64,000 nucleotides of DNA from Citrus sinensis (Eukaryota > Streptophyta > Magnoliopsida > Sapindales > Rutaceae): contig NC_068561.1 of assembly GCF_022201045.2 (NCBI RefSeq), positions 20,958,501 through 21,022,500 of the forward strand, written 5' to 3'. A program made the translations under genes and the position numbers. Every line of letters starts with the position of its first letter. Within the stretch, counting starts at the first letter, position 1. Below, piece by piece: positions 5,400 to 53,535 of this stretch. The notes beneath the pieces are model-generated. The model was not told where the DNA came from and ran no database searches. It was given only the letters and a program-made list of their open reading frames with translations.

Positions 5400-7385
5400 G
5401 ATTAATTGAGTCCTTTTTTTTTAATTAAAAAAAAAAAAGAAAAAAGAAAGGACTATGGAAATGTTCGTTAAAGCTCTGTTATAAAGGGCTTATAATTTGG
5501 GGGGTTAATGCTGCTATACTTGGACAATACAGCTATTGGCTCTTAGGAAGCTTTGAAATTGCCTTTGGCTTCGGATCCCTTGTGACTAGCACTATTTATA
5601 CACGTAGGTTTTTTTTTTTTTTTTTTTGGGCGTTTGCTACAGCTAATTTAGTGGGGTCATTTTTGTCCAATAATTAATTTTTCCACTATACCCCCCCCAC
5701 CCCCCCCCCCCAAAAAAAAACCAAGAAATATTAGGTCTTAATTGGAGATCTGCCGTCCTATGAGTTAATAGTATTGCATGGAAGCATGATATTGTGTGGT
5801 TTTGGTTTTTAAATATGAAAAAAAAAAAACACGATCATTCTAGACCGTCAAAATTGTAAATTCGGATGATTATGTATAATTGTGGGTCATTTTATAATCT
5901 CAGGATTTTCATAATTCTGAATTTCTGATCGATTTTCATAATGCACACGTGTTGTTGTTTCAACGAGTTATTATTACTATATTATGTGTATACATTCTTA
6001 AGAAATCAATCATAATAAAGAAAAATTTCAGTGTCGCATTTACATGTTTTAGAATACAAAATTGAGATTACATAATGATCTTTAATTACAGTTTAATATT
6101 TAAAACTTTTATTTTAAAATGTACGTATGTCTCTCCAAAAAAAAACTTTATGATAAAATTTATATACAAGTTAAGAGGTCGCTGCATATGACGGAAAACG
6201 AATCTACACAAAATTAATATTTGTTGTCAAATAGGTACATTACATTTCATAGGAAGAGTTTTAATTATTATAAGCAAACTTGCTCTCGTGCGTATTATTG
6301 ATTTTGCTGAGCACCTAGTGCAAGCTTACAACAAGCCTCCAATAATTCACTTCCTACTCTTAACTTAAAAAGGGCCAAGGCAGAGGAAAGCCAGCTGATA
6401 ACTCTCTATATTAAAAAAAATAAATTAATTAATTAACGTGGTGAGAAGGCATTGAATTCAATCCATAAAAAAAAATGAGTTTTTTTTTTTTTCTCTCTCT
6501 CTCAAAGGAGTGAGGGTAAATTTCTTCCTAAGGAACTGCGAATTGTTAGATATCACAACTTAAAATTAATCCACTATAAAATGTCTAACAAAAGTCCTCG
6601 TATATAAGTTTTGAATTGAAATTCTTATAGACATCTCTTCTGTTCTTTGAACGAGAGTAAAATTTATTTGAATTTGAAACAAAATTCAAAATACTAAATA
6701 TCGCATTACTTATTGATACGAGTAATCCTTTTTTTTTTTTTCCCTCCAAAAGCAATCCAATATGAATAAGTTGCGGGCCAAAATTAAAGAGGTGTATTGT
6801 CGAATCATCTTCAGCTTTAATATTTCAAGGACGAAATTCGACCTCCCCCTGCTCTGCTCTGCTCTCACACATGGATGGTTTACTTCACTGCAGAAGAAGA
6901 GACCGACCCACAAATCTTTAGCCAGTGGTCTCCGCTCCACACAATATTTTGTGCCAAATATATGTGGAAATAAGCAAATGCTAGTGCTTTCCGTCCTCTC
7001 AGTTCTCAGTACCACTCAGGTCTCGGGCCCTCAACATGAAAGAGAACCAAGTATATATCTACATCTCTACTAGATCGTAGTCTTTTGGTTCCATAAGCAA
7101 CAGCATTTAACATTACATCATTTGACCGTTGACCTTCTAACGTATGTTATGTGAGCCAACGTTAGTATTAAAATAAAAGTCTAACCGTAGGAAGAATAAT
7201 GGATTTAAGAAATATATAAAACATATAACAGTTAGGCGGCTTGTGGCTTTACGAAACACTTGCATGTCTCTGTGTCGACCATCCATGTGCGGATGTGCAT
7301 AATCAAACAGAACACAAAAGTCAGTATCCACCTGACACTAGAGGAAGGCAACGGCAAACAATTATAAATACACGAGTGCACTGAT
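5400..7385. other. Intergenic DNA with homopolymer tracts
   Basis: The first 150 bp are the probable promoter of the minus-strand carbonic anhydrase gene. Beyond that lie a T-run (about 5610-5627), a C-run directly followed by an A-run (5690-5720), and a T-run with CT repeats (6480-6503). Two overlapping frames on opposite strands at 6710-7073 resemble no family. I see no gene. Confidence 0.5.
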
Positions 7386-7662
7386 TTGATATTGAGGGTG
7401 GAGGTTGGATAGCCGTAGGTTAAGAATTACAGTATTAAAGTGTTTGTTAAACATTAGATAGATATAGTGGCTCGAAAAATAAGTTTATTTAATTTCACAT
7501 TTTTATTATAATAGCTAATAAAATATATTTATTGTTTTTTTGTCAAAATTCTTATTTAAAAATTAAATTTACCGTATACTAACAATTTTTATTTTATGGA
7601 TAATTTTTTTATAACAGCTATGACTTAAAAGGTACGAACCACACCTCAATACAAAATAAAGC
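7386..7662. mobile_element. MITE copy B, diverged
   Basis: The left side carries ATTGAGGGTGGAGG and then AGAATTACAGTATTAAAGTG, which matches the subterminal region of the clear copy at 28335. The right side carries ACACCTCAATACAAAATAAA, the complement of TTTTGTATTGAGGTGT. The interior is AT-rich. The ends are eroded, so limits are approximate. Confidence 0.5.
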
Positions 7663-9176
7663 CGAAGTTTGGTGCCATTAACGATGTGCAAGCTTTGTAG
7701 TGGGGGAATCAGATGCCTTATCCCATCCACCACTAAATTGCACAAAGAGGCTGGTGATTAAAATTGAGAGAATGTAGTAAAATGAATCTAGCTGCCACAC
7801 AAAAAGTCCAAAGCAGAAGCTGCCAGTAGACAACTCTTTAGTTTTGAACTTCATATCAGAGATAAAGAGATTCTGCAAAATGGGTGACGAGTGAAGAGGT
7901 CAACTTGTGGATATTCTTCTCAGCCCCCACAATGTGAGAGTCATAGGCCACACTTCATCAGTTCCTCCCGCGCATTATTCTTCAAAAGCAAACAGTTTTC
8001 CAAATTTATCATCATTTGATATTATAAGAATGCATCTGGGGATGTGGAAACTGGGGATGCATTTGTCGGTTACTGATACAAGATAGAGGCGATTGCTTGT
8101 TCTATATGTCACGTCGCTATTGGATGAGATACGATCTAATCCTTTTATCGTGCAGGAGCAAGCAAGGGAGAGCACTCACTGAAGCCGCAGATTTGAGTCC
8201 GTGATAACCTCAGTGCACAGGGAAGCCTCTGCATCACTAACAGTGCCTCCGCTTGTCAGTACCATTTTACCGGCTTGGCGTGGAATGGTGGTCCATATAG
8301 GACACGGAAATCTAGTCCTACTTTCATGGCACATAATACGTGTTAGATGCTTACAATCAACTCAAAAAATTAGGTGATGGTGCTGGTTTTTGTACCATTT
8401 ATGACAGGTTGGATACTTATCATTACCTAAAAAGTCTAGTATAAATAGGGATACGTTTAAGCACATGATAAATTAAAGGTTTCTATTATGTTTGAAGTAA
8501 GACAGTGCGATTGAGCCTAGAGTTATCCTCCACGATGCAGATCCCTCATGGATTCTATTCCACAGGAAATTATAAATACTCTGTTAGGAAATTGAAATTC
8601 TTCATACTGAAATTTAAATCCTTTCATCACGCAGAAGCTAAACATCAGTAAGTAGATACAAGAAATTTTGAGCACTAATAACAACATTAACTTTGCTTTC
8701 TTGTTTTATCCAAGTATAAAATTCAACAAAGTAGTTCCCATTATTTGAATTGAGTTTAACAAAACTGAAGATAAGTAACATAGACTCTTGGAGTATTTTG
8801 TAGACCGCTTTAGTTAACACTTTACAGCTACTTCTTAAACTAAAACACCCCGCCAAGTCCCTTCCATTAGATTATTCTGTTCCGCAAAAGGGGAAATGCC
8901 GTAAGTGTTCACAATAAGTACTCCAATCATCTGAAAGTACAGAAGCTATTCTCGCACATAATAAATAAAAGAATAAACATCATGTCACAAAACTAACTTA
9001 TTAAGAAGACTCACTCAGTTGAGGAACTAATTTTATTACAAAGAAGAAATCAGAAACATCGACACATCCCCTTTGAGTATTAATATATATATATATGATT
9101 TTGTTGGTCAAAAGGCAAAGGTACTTGTACCCAAGAGGATTAAGAAAACCTAAAAAGCCCTCGAAAGCTTCACCTA
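7663..9176. other. Intergenic DNA downstream of the GRX/GST-N-like gene
   Basis: The part next to 9177 is the likely 3' UTR of the minus-strand gene. A more GC-rich patch at 8176-8358 has a minus-strand open frame of about 50 codons ending in a TGA (see findings); I cannot tie it to any protein. No other gene signal is seen. Confidence 0.45.
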
Positions 9177-18400: not shown

Positions 18401-18772
18401 CTTAACTAGTTGACCCTAGTTTAATTGATGTATTATTCGTCAATTTACCACGAAATTAAAGTATTTTAGGGATTTTACTAATTACCGCATTTAACTCAAA
18501 TTCACTTAGTGCGTCAATCTTTGATTTGCAAAATTTCTAAATGGTTAAGTTACCATCAATGATGAAGTCGTGAATTAAAAGCAAAAGTCTAAAGAATTGG
18601 GGTCCCGTTTCAAATAAGGGATTTCCGTAAATAATTGTAAATTATGAGGGCAACTTCATAACTAAAATTCTATTAATACAACACATCCTAATCCTATGCT
18701 CCTCTAACTCTTAATTAGAAATAGAAATCTAACTCTCAGAAAAAGTGTAATAAAGCACCAAAAGCAGAAGAC
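15480..18772. other. Upstream region of the first PADRE gene
   Basis: AT-rich DNA without an open frame of coding character. It contains islands conserved with the region upstream of the second PADRE gene (16130-16250, 16560-16710, 18110-18190, 18588-18664), which are candidates for retained regulatory DNA. A 70-codon frame at 17975-18187 is not conserved as protein in the second unit and is rejected. Confidence 0.55.
18671..18678 (+). promoter_or_regulatory. Probable TATA element of the first PADRE gene
   Basis: TATTAATA lies about 100 bp upstream of the ATG at 18773. It aligns with TATAAATA at 24777-24784 of the paralogue, just after the conserved block ending CAACTTCATAAC. Confidence 0.5.
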
Positions 18773-19270
18773 ATGGGGAATTGCTTAATGCTTGAAGAAA
18801 AATTGATTAAGGTGATGAAAACAGATGGCAAAATACTTGAATATAAAGCCCCCGTCAAAGTTCAGGACGTGCTCGCAGAATTTGCAGGCCATGCTATTTC
18901 TGATTCATTTCCTGAAATCAGGCATCTCATGCCAGACTTTAAACTCCTTGGTGGGAACTTATACTTTCTTGTTCCTGTTCCATTGCCGTCCCGCAAAGTC
19001 GAGAAAAAGAAGGTGAGGTTTTCGGAGGAAGAAGCCAGAGACGGAGCCAAAGAAACAAGCAGTGTTGTGAGGATGAAGGTGGTGATCAGGAAGCAAGAGC
19101 TGCAGGATTTGCTGCTGCTGCAGAAAGGAGGAGTAGTTTCAGTTCAAGATGTGGGTTCTTGGCTTCAGGGTAAACAAAGCACCAATTCTCAGGCCGTTGG
19201 TTTCCAGGATGGCGGTAATAACAACGAAGGGTGGAAGCCTGAGTTGGAAAGCATACCTGAAGTTGACTAG
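18773..19270 (+). CDS. PADRE (DUF4228) family protein, paralogue 1
   Basis: Single exon, 165 residues. The start MGNC is the family's usual N-terminus, with a Gly-2 myristoylation signal and a neighbouring Cys that could be palmitoylated, so the protein may sit at the plasma membrane. The PADRE domain covers about residues 1-100: VMKTDGKILEY, VQDVLAEFAGHAISDS, LGGNLYFLVPVPLP, then the basic EKKKVRFSEEEA. The tail ends in WKPELESIPEVD. The family is plant-specific, often induced by pathogens and stress; its biochemical role is unknown. The paralogue at 24839 is about 70-75% identical by eye, the N-terminal half being the more conserved. The tandem arrangement and shared upstream blocks show both came from one duplicated unit. 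I recall a PADRE gene (At5g03890) between At5g03880 and At5g03900 in Arabidopsis, which would fit this position. Confidence 0.93.
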   Translation: MGNCLMLEEKLIKVMKTDGKILEYKAPVKVQDVLAEFAGHAISDSFPEIRHLMPDFKLLGGNLYFLVPVPLPSRKVEKKKVRFSEEEARDGAKETSSVVRMKVVIRKQELQDLLLLQKGGVVSVQDVGSWLQGKQSTNSQAVGFQDGGNNNEGWKPELESIPEVD

Positions 19271-24776: not shown

Positions 24777-24784
24777 TATAAATA
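24777..24784 (+). promoter_or_regulatory. TATA box of the second PADRE gene
   Basis: TATAAATA lies 55-62 bp upstream of the ATG at 24839. Just upstream is a block conserved with paralogue 1 (AAAGTCTAAAGAATTGGGG through CAACTTCATAAC). Confidence 0.65.
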
Positions 24785-24838
24785 CAATACGTCGATAGTA
24801 TATGCTCTTATGATAATGAAAAGGCACAAACAGAAGCC

Positions 24839-25312
24839 ATGGGGAATTGCTTAGTCCTTGAAGAAAAAGTGATTAAGGTGATGAAAACAGATGGCAAGAT
24901 ACTTGAATATAATCAACCCATCAGAGTTCAGGATGTGTTAGCAGAATTTTCTGGCCATGCAATTTCTGACTCGCTTCCCGAAATCAGGCATCTCAGGCCA
25001 GACTTTAAACTGGTTGGTGGGAACTTGTACTTTCTTGTACCTGTTCCATTGCCATCCCAGAAAGTTCAGAAAAAGAAGGTCAGGTTTTCGGATGAAGAGG
25101 CCGGAGCCGGGGCGAAAGAAAGAGGCGGTGTTGTGAGGATTAAGTTGGTTATCAGTAAGCAAGAGCTGGAGGAGTTACTGCAGAAACAAGGAGTTTCAGT
25201 TAAAGATATGGTTTCTCGGATTCAGAGTAAACAAAGTGCTGATGATTTCCAAAGTGGTGATAAGACTAAAGCGTGGAAGCCTGAGCTGGAAAGCATACCT
25301 GAAATAGACTAG
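24839..25312 (+). CDS. PADRE (DUF4228) family protein, paralogue 2
   Basis: Single exon, 157 residues, with MGNC at the N-terminus for lipidation. The domain keeps VMKTDGKILEY, VQDVLAEFSGHAISDS, GGNLYFLVPVPLP and QKKKVRFSDEEA, and the tail ends WKPELESIPEID. Relative to paralogue 1 it lacks several residues in the Leu-rich segment (residues about 110-120) and in the linker before the C-terminal motif, so divergence is concentrated in the C-terminal half. The frame is intact, which argues that both copies remain under selection. Function of the family is unknown beyond links to stress and pathogen response. A TATA box and the conserved upstream block are present. Confidence 0.93.
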   Translation: MGNCLVLEEKVIKVMKTDGKILEYNQPIRVQDVLAEFSGHAISDSLPEIRHLRPDFKLVGGNLYFLVPVPLPSQKVQKKKVRFSDEEAGAGAKERGGVVRIKLVISKQELEELLQKQGVSVKDMVSRIQSKQSADDFQSGDKTKAWKPELESIPEID

Positions 25313-48962: not shown

Positions 48963-48971
48963 ATCTATAAT

Positions 48972-49126
48972 GGGAAATTTTCTCATTTCATCATTTTCCA
49001 ACTTTTAATATCAAAAAATACCTTATTTTAATTTTTCTTAAAATAGCATCTACTTACAAAGTTCTAATACTAAATTACCCTTAAATTCTCGAAATAAAAC
49101 ACATAAATATTTCGCCCCATATTATC
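48972..49126 (+). repeat. Left terminal inverted repeat of the MULE
   Basis: It begins GGGAAATTTTC and pairs with 51556-51710 read in reverse complement. Shared blocks include ACTTACAAAGTTCT and AATTTTTCTTA.AATAGCA. Confidence 0.85.
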
Positions 49127-49496
49127 AAACTCCCAAGCAACAACCGAACATCTACACCCACCACCAAAACACTCCTCATTTCACCTCTCCCATATTATTC
49201 AACTATCACTCAACCTCCCTTTTATCTATCTTACATTCATCAAATTAATATATTTATTCAAGTATTAAAGACAAATTCAAGCAACAAACTAAAGAATAAT
49301 AAGAAGTTAAGGTTAGTATTTCTTCAATCTTTATCTCTTATTTTTTGATTAGGTTTATACAACTGATCAGTTGCTCATTTTGTTACAATGTGAGTACATT
49401 AAATGATTAATACGAGGTCATAAATTTTTAAATTAGTAAAATTTCGGCAAAATCCAACGAAAATGAGTTTTGAACGATGTTGAAGACGAAACCCAG

Positions 49497-49670
49497 AATC
49501 CAAGCGACAAGTACCTGTCGCCCTAGTGACAAAACTATCGCTCATGCTTAGAATGACTTGTCACTCAGGCGACAGGTACATGTCGCCTGGATTTTAGTAT
49601 TCGTCACTCGGGCGATGTATTAATATACAATACTGTCATCTGGGCAATAGTGTTGTCACCCGGATCATCC
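49497..49670. repeat. Left subterminal array of GTCGCC/GGCGAC motifs in the MULE
   Basis: At least six GCGAC/GTCGC-type cores or one-base variants occur. A near-perfect palindrome, GGCGACAGGTACATGTCGCC, lies at 49568-49587. The same motif type recurs on the other side of the ORF pair at 50825-51110. Confidence 0.75.
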
Positions 49671-49786
49671 GAATTTGTTAATAATTAGTTATTTATTTAA
49701 TATAGTAATGTTATTATTTGCAGTGTTTTTAATATAAAGTAGTGTTATTATTTTACATCAGGTTAATAGAGTCGGTAGTTCTTAAG

Positions 49787-50155
49787 ATGTATTTTGATGG
49801 AGCGTGGAAGACTTTGGAAGATGGTCGTATGGAGTATGAGCATGAAAAAGCTACTGCATTTTGTTTCCAAAAGGATGCAACATTTGAACAATTTAGTGCA
49901 AGGTTATATGGAATTCTGAAGAAAAGTCCAGATGAGTATTCCCTCACAGTAAAGACAAATGTGAAATCAACTCATCCGACGCAACCCATTAATCCACTGC
50001 CTATAGACATAGTGGATGATGAAATTATGAGAGTGATTATGCGTATGAACTTTGATCCAATTAATTATGGGTGTACTCCTATTTATGTGACGACAGCTCC
50101 TAAAGTTCCCATAGAACTTCCTTTGATGCCATCAATTCAAACTTCAGCCTTTTAA
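49787..50155 (+). CDS. MULE transposase N-terminal-like fragment
   Basis: 122 residues starting at the first ATG, MYFDGAWKTLEDGRMEYEHE. The layout (opening MYFDGAW, FCFQKDATFEQFSARLYGIL, then DEYSLTVKTNV and PLPIDIVDDEIMRVIMRMN) is that of the PB1-like region at the start of many plant MULE transposases. The zinc finger, DDE catalytic core and SWIM domain that should follow are absent; the frame ends where the opposing DUF1985 ORF ends. It is probably not functional as a transposase. An upstream intron acceptor (ATCAG at about 49756-49760) could feed this exon. Confidence 0.6.
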   Translation: MYFDGAWKTLEDGRMEYEHEKATAFCFQKDATFEQFSARLYGILKKSPDEYSLTVKTNVKSTHPTQPINPLPIDIVDDEIMRVIMRMNFDPINYGCTPIYVTTAPKVPIELPLMPSIQTSAF

Positions 50156-50755
50156 CACTACTCCCCATTCCGCCCCCATAATGATCCTATTGATGACAAT
50201 ATTATCAATACAAATACAAATAATATGCATGCAGAAACATATAACATTGAGTCGAAAATAGAATAAGGCAATCCTCAACGCGTCTATGTCATCCATGTTA
50301 GCGAAATAAAAATCATCAAACTTGTATTCTAATTCATTAAGCTTAAAGTATTGTGCTCCACCAAAATATTGATCACGCATTCGCCAACCAAAGTGTTTTT
50401 TCTGCAAACTTTCCACATTGCCACATTTTAATCCTGTCACCAAGCACCATTCTTGAAGAGAGAAACGTAACATCTCATTGTCAATCCTAAACCACATTTG
50501 GTACTCATCATCAACTTGTTTTACGACTAATCTAAGCAACAAATAGTGTACAAGATTGCCGTTAAATCTAGGATCCCCCATGACCAGAAAATGACCAAAA
50601 ATTGACTTTTTGAATAGCCCAAATTGACTATCAGTTAACTTATTTTGTATATGCGTAGTGGCAAAAGTAAATCTCGTTAAATTTGAAACACAACTTGCGA
50701 AATTATCATCGATTGGTATCTTCAGTGACCAGGGATGCATCTGCTTGTCGGACAT
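50144..50755 (-). CDS. DUF1985 domain ORF carried by the MULE
   Basis: 203 residues opening with ATG at 50753-50755. The DUF1985 pattern is visible: LTDSQFGLFKKSIFGHFLVM, GNLVHYLLLRLV, MWFRIDNEMLRFSLQEWCLV followed by TGLKCG, and DIDALRIALFYF. DUF1985 is normally joined to an Ulp1-type cysteine protease domain in plant MULE-associated genes; here no protease follows, and after about residue 165 the sequence turns hydrophobic and loses similarity. It lies antiparallel to the transposase-like ORF and overlaps its 3' end by 12 bp. Likely a captured and truncated gene. Confidence 0.7.
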   Translation of the reverse strand: MSDKQMHPWSLKIPIDDNFASCVSNLTRFTFATTHIQNKLTDSQFGLFKKSIFGHFLVMGDPRFNGNLVHYLLLRLVVKQVDDEYQMWFRIDNEMLRFSLQEWCLVTGLKCGNVESLQKKHFGWRMRDQYFGGAQYFKLNELEYKFDDFYFANMDDIDALRIALFYFRLNVICFCMHIICICIDNIVINRIIMGAEWGVVLKG

Positions 50756-50824
50756 ATTTAAACAATAAATTACGACAGCATTAGCATAAATATTTTAAAG
50801 AAAAAAATTGAAACAATCAGAAAA

Positions 50825-51110
50825 CTTGGGCGACAACATGTTCGGTTGCTGTCGCCCATGTACCTACGTTGCCCGATACATGGGCGACACAATTTTGTTG
50901 CCTAGATTCAATTGATGTCGCCCAAAAAGCAGGTGACGCAGGTACATGGGCAACATCATATATCGCCCAACCAAATCATGATGTCACCTATTTACATGAT
51001 TGGGCGACGCAAGCGTGTCGCCCGCGTTGCTTAGCCTCCTACGCCATGCATGACCATTTGGTTGGGTGATGGGGAGAAGCCGCCCGCCTTGCCCAAGCTT
51101 GACATGGCCA
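50825..51110. repeat. Right subterminal array of GGGCGAC/GTCGCCC motifs in the MULE
   Basis: GGGCGAC, GTCGCCC and close variants occur about ten times, in both orientations, often beside TACATGGG or CCCATGTA. With the left array they bracket the ORF pair. Confidence 0.75.
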
Positions 51111-51555
51111 AATTTTAGGTAACACGGGCAACCATCCACGTTCTTGATTGGCCAACACACTAATCTTTTCTTTAACCTCAAAATAATTTTAAGTTTAAAT
51201 CAATAATTTCTTAGAGGCATTTAAACAAACACTAGGTATGCCATTTATTAAATATCTTAATCTTAAAAAAACTCTCATATTTTCATATCCACTACACATC
51301 CTAGTGATTAACTATGATCAATGATGAACCAAGCAGGCAATTTTAACAAAAAAATTATTTGATTCATGAAAAAGATCAAGAAAGTACCTAAGCCACGGAA
51401 ACCGTATGTAAAGAATCTTGTTGGAAGCAAAATAACTCACACACGCCACTGGAAGTGAAGGAAATCGCCGTTGGAAGTGAAGGAACTCGGCAAAACTCAA
51501 GAAACATCGGAAGTGAAAGAACTTCGTGTGGACATATTTCGAGCGATGTTTTTAG

Positions 51556-51710
51556 GTGAATATTGGGTGAAATATTTGTGTGTTTTGTTATGAAAATTTA
51601 GGGATAATTTAGTCCCAGAACTTTGTAAGTGGTTGCTATTGTAAGAAAAATTGAAGTGAGGTCTTTTTTTTATATTAAAAATTGGAAAGTGGTCAATGGG
51701 AACATTTCCC
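51556..51710 (-). repeat. Right terminal inverted repeat of the MULE
   Basis: Complement of the left repeat (48972-49126), ending CATTTCCC next to the second ATCTATAAT copy. Confidence 0.85.
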
Positions 51711-51719
51711 ATCTATAAT

Positions 51720-52375: not shown

Positions 52376-52849
52376 TCAAACGAAGTACGTTGTCATGTGA
52401 ATCCCTTTCTGCTTCAAACCACATTTTTCATAGAACGCTTTGTTGCCGAGACTGCAATCAAGAATTACCTTATAACATCCCACAGCATGAGCATGGTCGG
52501 TAAGGAATTTGATAATCTTTTTACCTAATTGCATTCCTCGAGCACTTGCATCAACCACAACATCTTCTATGTGCCCAACCTTTCCACAGTTCCTCAGAAA
52601 CTTCTTTTCGATGAATATACTCCCAGTTGCAATAATCTTCCCAGAACGATCATCTTCAATCACACAAACAATATGGTCATCACCATAGGAGTTCAGCTCT
52701 AGAAATCGTTCTTCGAATTGCTTGTTAGATACAGAATCACAAACACTGAGTTGTTGCAGTAGCTCTATGAAACCCTTGCTTTTGTCAGTAATCTCTAATT
52801 TTCGGACTTGAAACCTGTTTTTTCCACCGGATACATCAGCACTCTGCAT
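52376..52849 (-). CDS. GNA1: Glucosamine-6-phosphate N-acetyltransferase
   Basis: Single coding exon, 157 residues. GNA1 transfers acetyl from acetyl-CoA to glucosamine 6-phosphate in the UDP-GlcNAc pathway, needed for protein N-glycosylation and GPI anchors; in plants it is linked to the ER. The GNAT fold is clear: VRKLEITDKSKGFIELLQQL at the N-terminus, HIEDVVVDASARGMQLGKKI with the acetyl-CoA pyrophosphate loop (RGMQLGK), and the substrate and thiolate region YKVILDCSLGNKAFYEKCGL, then the family-typical end. Length is normal. The 5' UTR appears split: a GTGAGT donor at 53530-53535 and a GCAG acceptor at 52874-52877 define a 662-nt leader intron just before the ATG, as in many plant housekeeping genes. 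Confidence 0.95.
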   Translation of the reverse strand: MQSADVSGGKNRFQVRKLEITDKSKGFIELLQQLSVCDSVSNKQFEERFLELNSYGDDHIVCVIEDDRSGKIIATGSIFIEKKFLRNCGKVGHIEDVVVDASARGMQLGKKIIKFLTDHAHAVGCYKVILDCSLGNKAFYEKCGLKQKGIHMTTYFV

Positions 52850-52873
52850 CCTTTTCAGTGAGAACTTAATTGT

Positions 52874-53535
52874 CTGCTTAATTTCCTAGCAGATGAAAAC
52901 ATAATCAACAAGAATAGAGCATTTGATCTGTTCAAAGGAAAATGCTTTTTTTTTTTTTTGAAACACAGAGAAAAAGACATACAAATGATGAAAATAAATA
53001 AATATGATATAATACTATAATCTTTCTTAACTTCCTTTAACCGTGACATATGGAATTGAACTAGCACGCTAGGAAATCTTAGTGTCAAAATTCAAATCAA
53101 CGCACCCTAATCATAATCTACTACTACCAAAACCCACAACAAATAAAGCTTATCATGTAATCTAATAAATCAAGAAAGGTACTACAATCAAAGGTTAAGC
53201 TTCTGTATAACCCTAATAAAGTAAGCTCTTTCTACGAAATGCTACAGCAACTGAGTTATGTCTCCGTCATCTGTAATTTCATTGCCTAATAAGCTTGATA
53301 GAACTTACAAATTATAAGGGTTTATGCAAAAGGAAAAAGCAAGTTGGTTGAAAAAAAAAAATTAGAAAAAGGGTAGCAGCATGACAAAAGCAAGATCAGT
53401 TAAACAACAGAAAAGCATGAGCATGGAAATTGATATCAGGACAATTGAATCGATCAGATCAGATCAGAACTGAAGCATTTTGAACAGGCAAATAATCAAA
53501 ATCAACGGAAATGCAGGTGAAGTGAAATGACTCAC
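52874..53535 (-). other. Probable 5' UTR intron of GNA1
   Basis: The donor reads ACG/GTGAGT and the acceptor AAGCAG/ACAATT on the minus strand, with the coding ATG 24 nt after the acceptor. The upstream exon (53536 to about 53640) is GC-richer than the intron. Inferred from splice-site quality only. Confidence 0.55.

Follow-up and report, generated by a model that had tools for sequence, protein, structure and literature searches.

A two-gene Mutator-like element reduced by one internal deletion

The window analysed here, a 64,000-nucleotide stretch of Citrus sinensis DNA (NC_068561.1, positions 20,958,501 to 21,022,500, forward strand), contains at 48972-51710 a Mutator-like element (MULE) of 2,739 bp in which remnants of a transposase gene and of a DUF1985 gene stand tail to tail on opposite strands. 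Comparison with its relatives makes it very probable that this copy is a non-autonomous internal-deletion derivative of a two-gene MULE with terminal inverted repeats (TIRs). Palindromic GGCGACA-type arrays were retained in its noncoding DNA. The genome searched was a 299.7-Mb, 11-contig assembly of the species, with the window on contig C6 (26,176,707 bp). The features of the element and of its flanking target-site duplication (TSD), including the two open reading frames ORF+ and ORF-, are as follows.

48963-48971, unstranded: left TSD, ATCTATAAT, exact 9-bp match to the right copy
48972-49123, plus strand: left TIR, 152 bp, starting GGGAAAT, 82% identical to the right TIR; termini homologous in other copies
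49485-49660, unstranded: noncoding array upstream of the transposase remnant, with the palindrome GGCGACAGGTACATGTCGCC and an inverted repeat with 48-bp arms at 49485-49605 (fold z -10.1)
49733-50155, plus strand: ORF+, 140 amino acids, transposase N-terminal remnant with a premature stop at its end (frame scan, homology)
49751-50259, plus strand: transposase-gene (mudrA-type) remnant up to the deletion junction (protein homology to amino acids 11-181 of 888 in locus L072)
50144-50794, minus strand: ORF-, 216 amino acids, DUF1985 remnant (frame scan, Pfam), the last 37-39 codons being antisense transposase DNA past the junction
50256-50259, unstranded: deletion junction, AAAT common to both sides (base-level comparison with locus L018, 5,011 bp of which the window element lacks)
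50256-50755, minus strand: part that belongs to the DUF1985 gene itself, between its probable start codon and the junction (Pfam, homology, reading of the joint)
50829-51075, unstranded: noncoding array upstream of the DUF1985 remnant, with six GTCGCC sites and inverted repeats at 50847-50958 and 50962-51070 (fold z -8.3 and -3.5)
51559-51710, minus strand: right TIR, 152 bp, starting GGGAAAT, 82% identical to the left TIR; termini homologous in other copies
51711-51719, unstranded: right TSD, ATCTATAAT, exact 9-bp match to the left copy

L018 is a 7,768-bp relative with an exact TSD, ATAAAACTT, and is 74-80% identical to the window element, which consists of the collinear L018 blocks 1-1297 and 6309-7767. 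In L018, one strand has transposase homology over amino acids 3-886 and the opposite strand holds Ulp1, middle and DUF1985 segments, with many stops; the deletion took away the DDE, zinc-finger and Ulp1 parts. Given the collinearity and the single AAAT joint, one deletion accounts for both truncated genes. The original prediction had seen in the tail-to-tail pair a history of capture and rearrangement; for the window copy we reject this on the grounds of its collinearity with L018.

L072 is an apparently intact relative of the window element. On direct reading the element spans L072:32-8514 within an exact 9-bp duplication, AAAAGTTAG, and has an open 888-amino-acid transposase frame with DBD_Tnp_Mut, MULE and SWIM domains and, on the opposite strand, frames with DUF1985 (E 4e-20) and Peptidase_C48 (E 8e-20). 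Genome-wide, 149 matches to the transposase N-terminus and 150 to DUF1985 were listed, and those within 10 kb of each other were treated as neighbours. Among these listed matches, 94 of 99 neighbouring pairs were convergent: 93 as scored by script, plus the window's own overlapping pair, which the script scored as divergent and which we counted as convergent. Three of the remaining pairs were divergent and two lay on the same strand, while 50 transposase matches had no DUF1985 neighbour; the 99 paired transposase matches draw on 95 of the DUF1985 matches. The gap measured 4,422-5,402 bp in 70 of the 93 script-scored convergent pairs. The antiparallel pair is therefore the usual architecture of the parent elements, and with this layout a single deletion makes capture or rearrangement unnecessary. 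By this comparison, the tail-to-tail gene ends, odd as they look, remain from the ordinary arrangement of the parent.

MULEs with an Ulp1 gene are known from other plants, and that of melon has been named CUMULE. Kaonashi (KI-MULE) and other Ulp1-MULEs of Arabidopsis, melon, rice and grapevine combine a mudrA-type transposase with an Ulp1-domain gene, which in KI-MULEs is reversed relative to the transposase (PMC2528002). L072 and L018 have the same layout and the same reversed orientation; the window copy differs in being without the catalytic parts of both genes, its Ulp1 part having been deleted. Arabidopsis KI-MULEs are non-TIR elements, whereas the Citrus family has TIRs of about 150 bp; melon also has TIR-MULEs with Ulp1 (PMC2528002). 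The parent would have carried a convergent MULE transposase gene (left, plus strand) and a DUF1985-Ulp1 gene (right, minus strand) of the kind found in Kaonashi and in the VANC genes discussed below. The expectation that a DUF1985 gene in a MULE is a passenger usually joined to an Ulp1-type protease held for the Ulp1 partner, which is present in relatives; it did not hold for the passenger, because this is the element's own second gene and was not picked up by the window copy.

A Pack-MULE-like history, in which a MULE took up a DUF1985 fragment and placed it by rearrangement tail to tail with a truncated transposase gene, is hardly credible here: genes of this sort are indeed present in plant MULEs, and the Ulp1 domains found there have been called transduplicated host sequence (PMC13317346, PMC2528002), but the convergent two-gene layout is the rule, the single joint covers both truncations, both fragments come from the family's own two genes rather than from a host gene replacing the transposase, and any capture would date back to the parent family, which is far older. 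The puzzling antiparallel truncated pair follows cleanly from one deletion in a MULE with two convergent genes, which is a warning against annotating such pairs as captured genes. The deletion may have formed by microhomology joining, through interrupted gap repair or the joining of a double-strand break, after which the deleted form would have moved, or been inherited, with transposase supplied in trans. Maize Ds and dMu are likewise internally deleted non-autonomous transposons, in which the ends are kept, the middle is lost and the joints vary between copies; the Citrus deletion copies differ in that they also retain noncoding arrays.

Ends of the element

The prediction of a complete Mutator-like element within an exact 9-bp duplication proved correct, 48963-48971 being identical to 51711-51719; a TSD of about 9 bp is typical of MULEs. 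The TIRs, foreseen at about 155 bp with a GGGAAAT start, aligned over 152 bp at 82% identity, as befits a TIR-MULE. Nor did the ends lie elsewhere in other copies, since the 17 other family copies with both ends terminate at homologous termini. As a control, the best pair of 9-mers was sought at the flanks of the 19 elements with both ends (18 family copies, window element included, and L072), with shifts of up to 2 bp allowed. A match of at least 8 of 9 positions was obtained in 12 of the 19 elements versus 11 of 342 cross-copy pairs of left and right flanks, which places the TSD beyond chance. L072 is among the seven misses, its right end having been put at 8518 in this control versus 8514 on direct reading. 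In the search for an empty site within the assembly, the left flank of the element had no second match, and the right flank a 63-bp match only.

The two reading frames

The presence of a MULE N-terminal-like frame and an opposite-strand DUF1985 frame with a 12-bp overlap at their 3' ends, as originally described, was confirmed. As stop-to-stop frames, ORF+ and ORF- are convergent and have 12 bp in common, both stops included. ORF- matched DUF1985 in Pfam with E 2e-13, in truncated form; ORF+ had no Pfam match above the curated cut-off. It is, however, 42-49% identical to the N-terminus of uninterrupted 884-918-amino-acid frames elsewhere in the genome, and its region showed 44% identity to amino acids 11-181 of the L072 transposase. 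ORF+ stops at 50153, whereas transposase homology runs on to the junction, so its stop is premature. ORF- reads through the junction and continues for 37-39 codons on the antisense strand of transposase DNA. For these reasons the 12-bp overlap is a chance meeting of two accidental stops, and a genuine gene-gene overlap was rejected. An AlphaFold2 model of DUF1985 had a mean pLDDT of 41, too poor for fold comparison.

Neither an Ulp1 nor a DDE domain was found in the window element by Pfam and homology search, in agreement with the original statement that the protease is missing. Full-length and DDE-bearing relatives, which that prediction had proposed to look for, were recovered: L018 at 7,768 bp, L072 with its 888-amino-acid transposase (MULE domain, E 2e-19) and L030 (MULE, E 3e-8). 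With the DDE domain absent here and present in relatives, the window element is a non-autonomous member by descent.

It is very improbable that the truncated DUF1985 frame is a selected product, acting as an adaptor or a dominant negative. Its 216 codons are open, and the same chimeric protein is still open at 92% identity in P0001, a database protein (ENA, 4,441-bp contig); against this, the tail of ORF- is antisense transposase DNA, and at least one stop occurs in 10 of 12 other family fragments, which makes decay the rule.

Family copies and history of the deletion

A search with the whole element gave at least 121 matching pieces (40 of 109 candidates scored). For comparison, 33 regions were taken, of which L036 and L041 overlap, leaving 32 distinct places; 18 elements have both ends, the window element included. 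Other joints were seen relative to L018: 1581|6392 in L014, L015, L016 and L019, 1557|6392 in L017, and elsewhere 1309|6460, 1522|6629, 1251|6350, 950|6660, 743|7048 and 554|7001. Several copies have two or more deletions. Internal deletion is, judged by these joints, the family's habit. L014, L015, L016, L017 and L019 are five copies within about 300 kb (C4:4.23-4.53 Mb), four of them with the joint 1581|6392, which suggests that a deleted copy was multiplied by segmental duplication rather than by five transpositions. In L012 (C7:25311000-25319100) the N- and C-terminal parts of the transposase are kept and reverse transcriptase/RNase H frames, copia-like by eye, lie mid-element; by its frames this middle part is a nested retrotransposon-type insertion. 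L027 (C8:22932800-22935200) has at 2150-2223 a second partial right terminal repeat, about 320 bp past its own right end.

The nearest genome copies among those scored, L009 and L012, are 90-91% identical to the window element over 1-1.3 kb. P0001 is 92% identical to the ORF- protein and matches its chimeric tail in 38 of 39 residues; the deletion therefore predates the divergence of the window copy and P0001. Of the 150 matches scored for the DDE stretch of L030, only two, L030 itself and L018 (70%), belong to the window element's own subfamily, and both transposase genes are broken by stops. The other scored matches did not exceed 60% identity; many lie in uninterrupted frames of 880-918 amino acids. 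With no intact transposase of its own subfamily among the 150 scored matches, the window copy is probably immobile now, unless the transposase of a related subfamily acts on its ends.

Several points weigh against the deletion history proposed here. L018 is decayed and only 74-80% identical, and is therefore a proxy for the true parent. The window element's two TIRs have diverged by 18%. The window element's joint did not appear in any of the 32 loci compared with L018, some of which are too incomplete to show it, so that movement after the deletion was not seen in the genome. Finally, P0001 may stem from the very insertion seen here, carried by a related plant.

Palindromic GGCGACA arrays

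GGCGAC and GCGACA were among the strongest hexamer excesses in the element, with 9 occurrences each versus 0.25 and 0.49 expected. All eight TGTCGCC of the window lie inside the element, and the remaining 61.3 kb of the window contain 12 GCGACA. Over the 18 complete family copies, 160 of 162 sites outside the TIRs lay outside coding-labelled parts (32.1 kb) and two inside (20.7 kb, a label that takes in the nested insertion of L012). With aligned coding sequence only (15.7 kb), the counts were 137 outside and 1 inside for GCGACA, and 133 and 1 for GGCGAC. The TIRs had no site in 5,098 bp, and every one of the 18 copies retains at least four sites. The ratio of noncoding to coding occurrence put GCGACA 4th and GGCGAC 5th of the 391 hexamers with at least 30 noncoding matches; three hexamers ranked higher: GGGCGA and CGCCCA, both overlapping this motif, and GGGCAA, which differs from GGGCGA in one letter. 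Coding and noncoding parts have the same G+C content.

At 19 DUF1985 loci of other subfamilies, GCGACA occurred at 4.84 per kb upstream versus 0.33 per kb downstream of the gene and was commoner upstream in 17 of them. GCGACA had been picked after the window element and L072 were viewed, which makes this test only partly independent. The exceptions were L058, with 8 downstream versus 5 upstream, and L059, with none on either side; L071 had one on each side. Only two or three upstream GCGACA without an evident array were present in L054, L062, L065, L069 and L070, and no evident array was seen in L059, L062, L065 and L071. Large arrays with other flanking letters were found in L063-L064 (GTGCGACA) and in L053 and L056 (GCGCGACA), so that the core GCGACA is constant while its flanks vary between subfamilies. 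The left array of L072 has the word GTGAGACAGG. The upstream array at L072:7241-8061 has an extremely high GC content and contains nested palindromes built of the words CGCGCGAG and GTGCGACAGG; it is probably difficult to assemble.

The strict palindrome GGCGACAN{2,10}TGTCGCC occurred at 17 distinct genome sites, versus one for the reversed-pattern control. Eight are in listed family copies, one is in the further family derivative L073, and one lies within 100 bp of another subfamily's transposase match. Three sites were unread, and four (L074-L077) have no clear MULE homology, bar a 29-bp match in L077; these last count against tying the palindrome to the MULEs, and the idea that it is exclusive to the window family was rejected on their account. 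In L074, L075 and L076 (C1, C3) GCGACA reached 5.6-7.7 per kb with no detectable MULE homology, and one of these loci adjoins frames that by eye resemble a retroelement remnant.

Possible function of the arrays

Arabidopsis VANC proteins, in which DUF1985 is one of the marked domains, bind short repeated motifs in their own family's noncoding DNA and cause loss of DNA methylation (PMC5735166, PMC10398659). VANC genes with an Ulp1 domain correspond to the KIU genes (2026 review, PMC13317346). The target repeats, found in introns and upstream of VANA, are not the same in related families: the VANC21 motif, YAGTATTAY, is dense and has one orientation, and those of VANC6 are AGTTGTCC and AGTTGTAC (PMC5735166). 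The window element resembles these VANDAL transposons in its truncated DUF1985 domain and in motif repeats concentrated in noncoding DNA. It differs in its long TIRs, those of VANDALs being absent or degenerate, and in the word GGCGACA forming inverted palindromic pairs of mixed orientation, unlike the single orientation of VANC21 motifs.

By analogy, we tentatively consider that Citrus TIR-MULEs may run a VANC-like anti-silencing system that targets palindromic arrays with a GCGACA core. The parent would have encoded, besides its transposase, an anti-silencing protein resembling KIU; its DUF1985 protein, like Arabidopsis VANC, would have recognised the arrays and kept the family copies unmethylated; and deletion derivatives would retain the arrays, at least in part, together with the ends. 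Such derivatives would then ride under the protection of the parent's anti-silencing protein in addition to using its transposase, and would offer natural tests of which arrays are needed; TIR-bearing MULEs of a crop tree would share the co-evolving anti-silencing system of Arabidopsis VANDALs. L074-L076 could possibly be hitch-hikers on the same recognition word, as AT9TSD1 hitch-hikes on VANC6 in Arabidopsis (PMC5735166).

The arrays could quite plausibly be transposase-binding subterminal sites or bystander satellite repeats instead of targets of the DUF1985 protein. In other DNA transposons, subterminal repeats are transposase-binding sites, and the GCGACA-rich stretches of L074-L077 fit this explanation too. 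It is less readily reconciled with the lack of sites in the TIRs, with a further array that in several copies lies between the two genes, far from the parent's ends, and with a word that varies between subfamilies as Arabidopsis VANC targets do (PMC5735166). A role of the palindromic arrays as RNA hairpins, giving rise to small RNAs by which the family is silenced, is unlikely. The fold potential of the window arrays is very strong (z -10.1 and -8.3) and recurs in many copies, but it is uneven over the 19 left and 13 right family arrays, with z from -8.4 to -0.9 (40 shuffles each). Mu-killer is the comparison for such hairpin silencing.

Closest to the proposed anti-silencing role of the arrays is reportedly a study by Sasaki et al. 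2022 (EMBO J) of the anti-silencing systems that eudicot Mu-like transposons have. No report of arrays in Citrus DUF1985 MULEs was found in the literature searched, mostly by title and abstract, where DUF1985 and citrus were mentioned together in a mango genome paper; novelty is not claimed firmly. CitMule of clementine is likewise a Citrus MULE with 9-bp TSDs (PMC4334395, PMC9832951); it differs in its FAR1-type transposase and degenerate TIRs, and the main text of the CitMule paper mentions neither DUF1985 nor Ulp1. Three MULEs, called hyperactive, account for 31 of 40 spontaneous structural variants that one study detected in sweet orange (PMC9832951). As a transposon copy the window element is ordinary; the arrays are moderately interesting and are the part worth an experiment.

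Neighbourhood in the window

A GNAT acetyltransferase frame at 52376-52885 on the minus strand ends about 0.67 kb from the right end of the element, which therefore lies close to the 3' end of the GNAT gene. Two similar PADRE-domain frames on the same strand, at 18725-19270 and 24782-25312, are about 6 kb apart and probably represent a tandem duplication.

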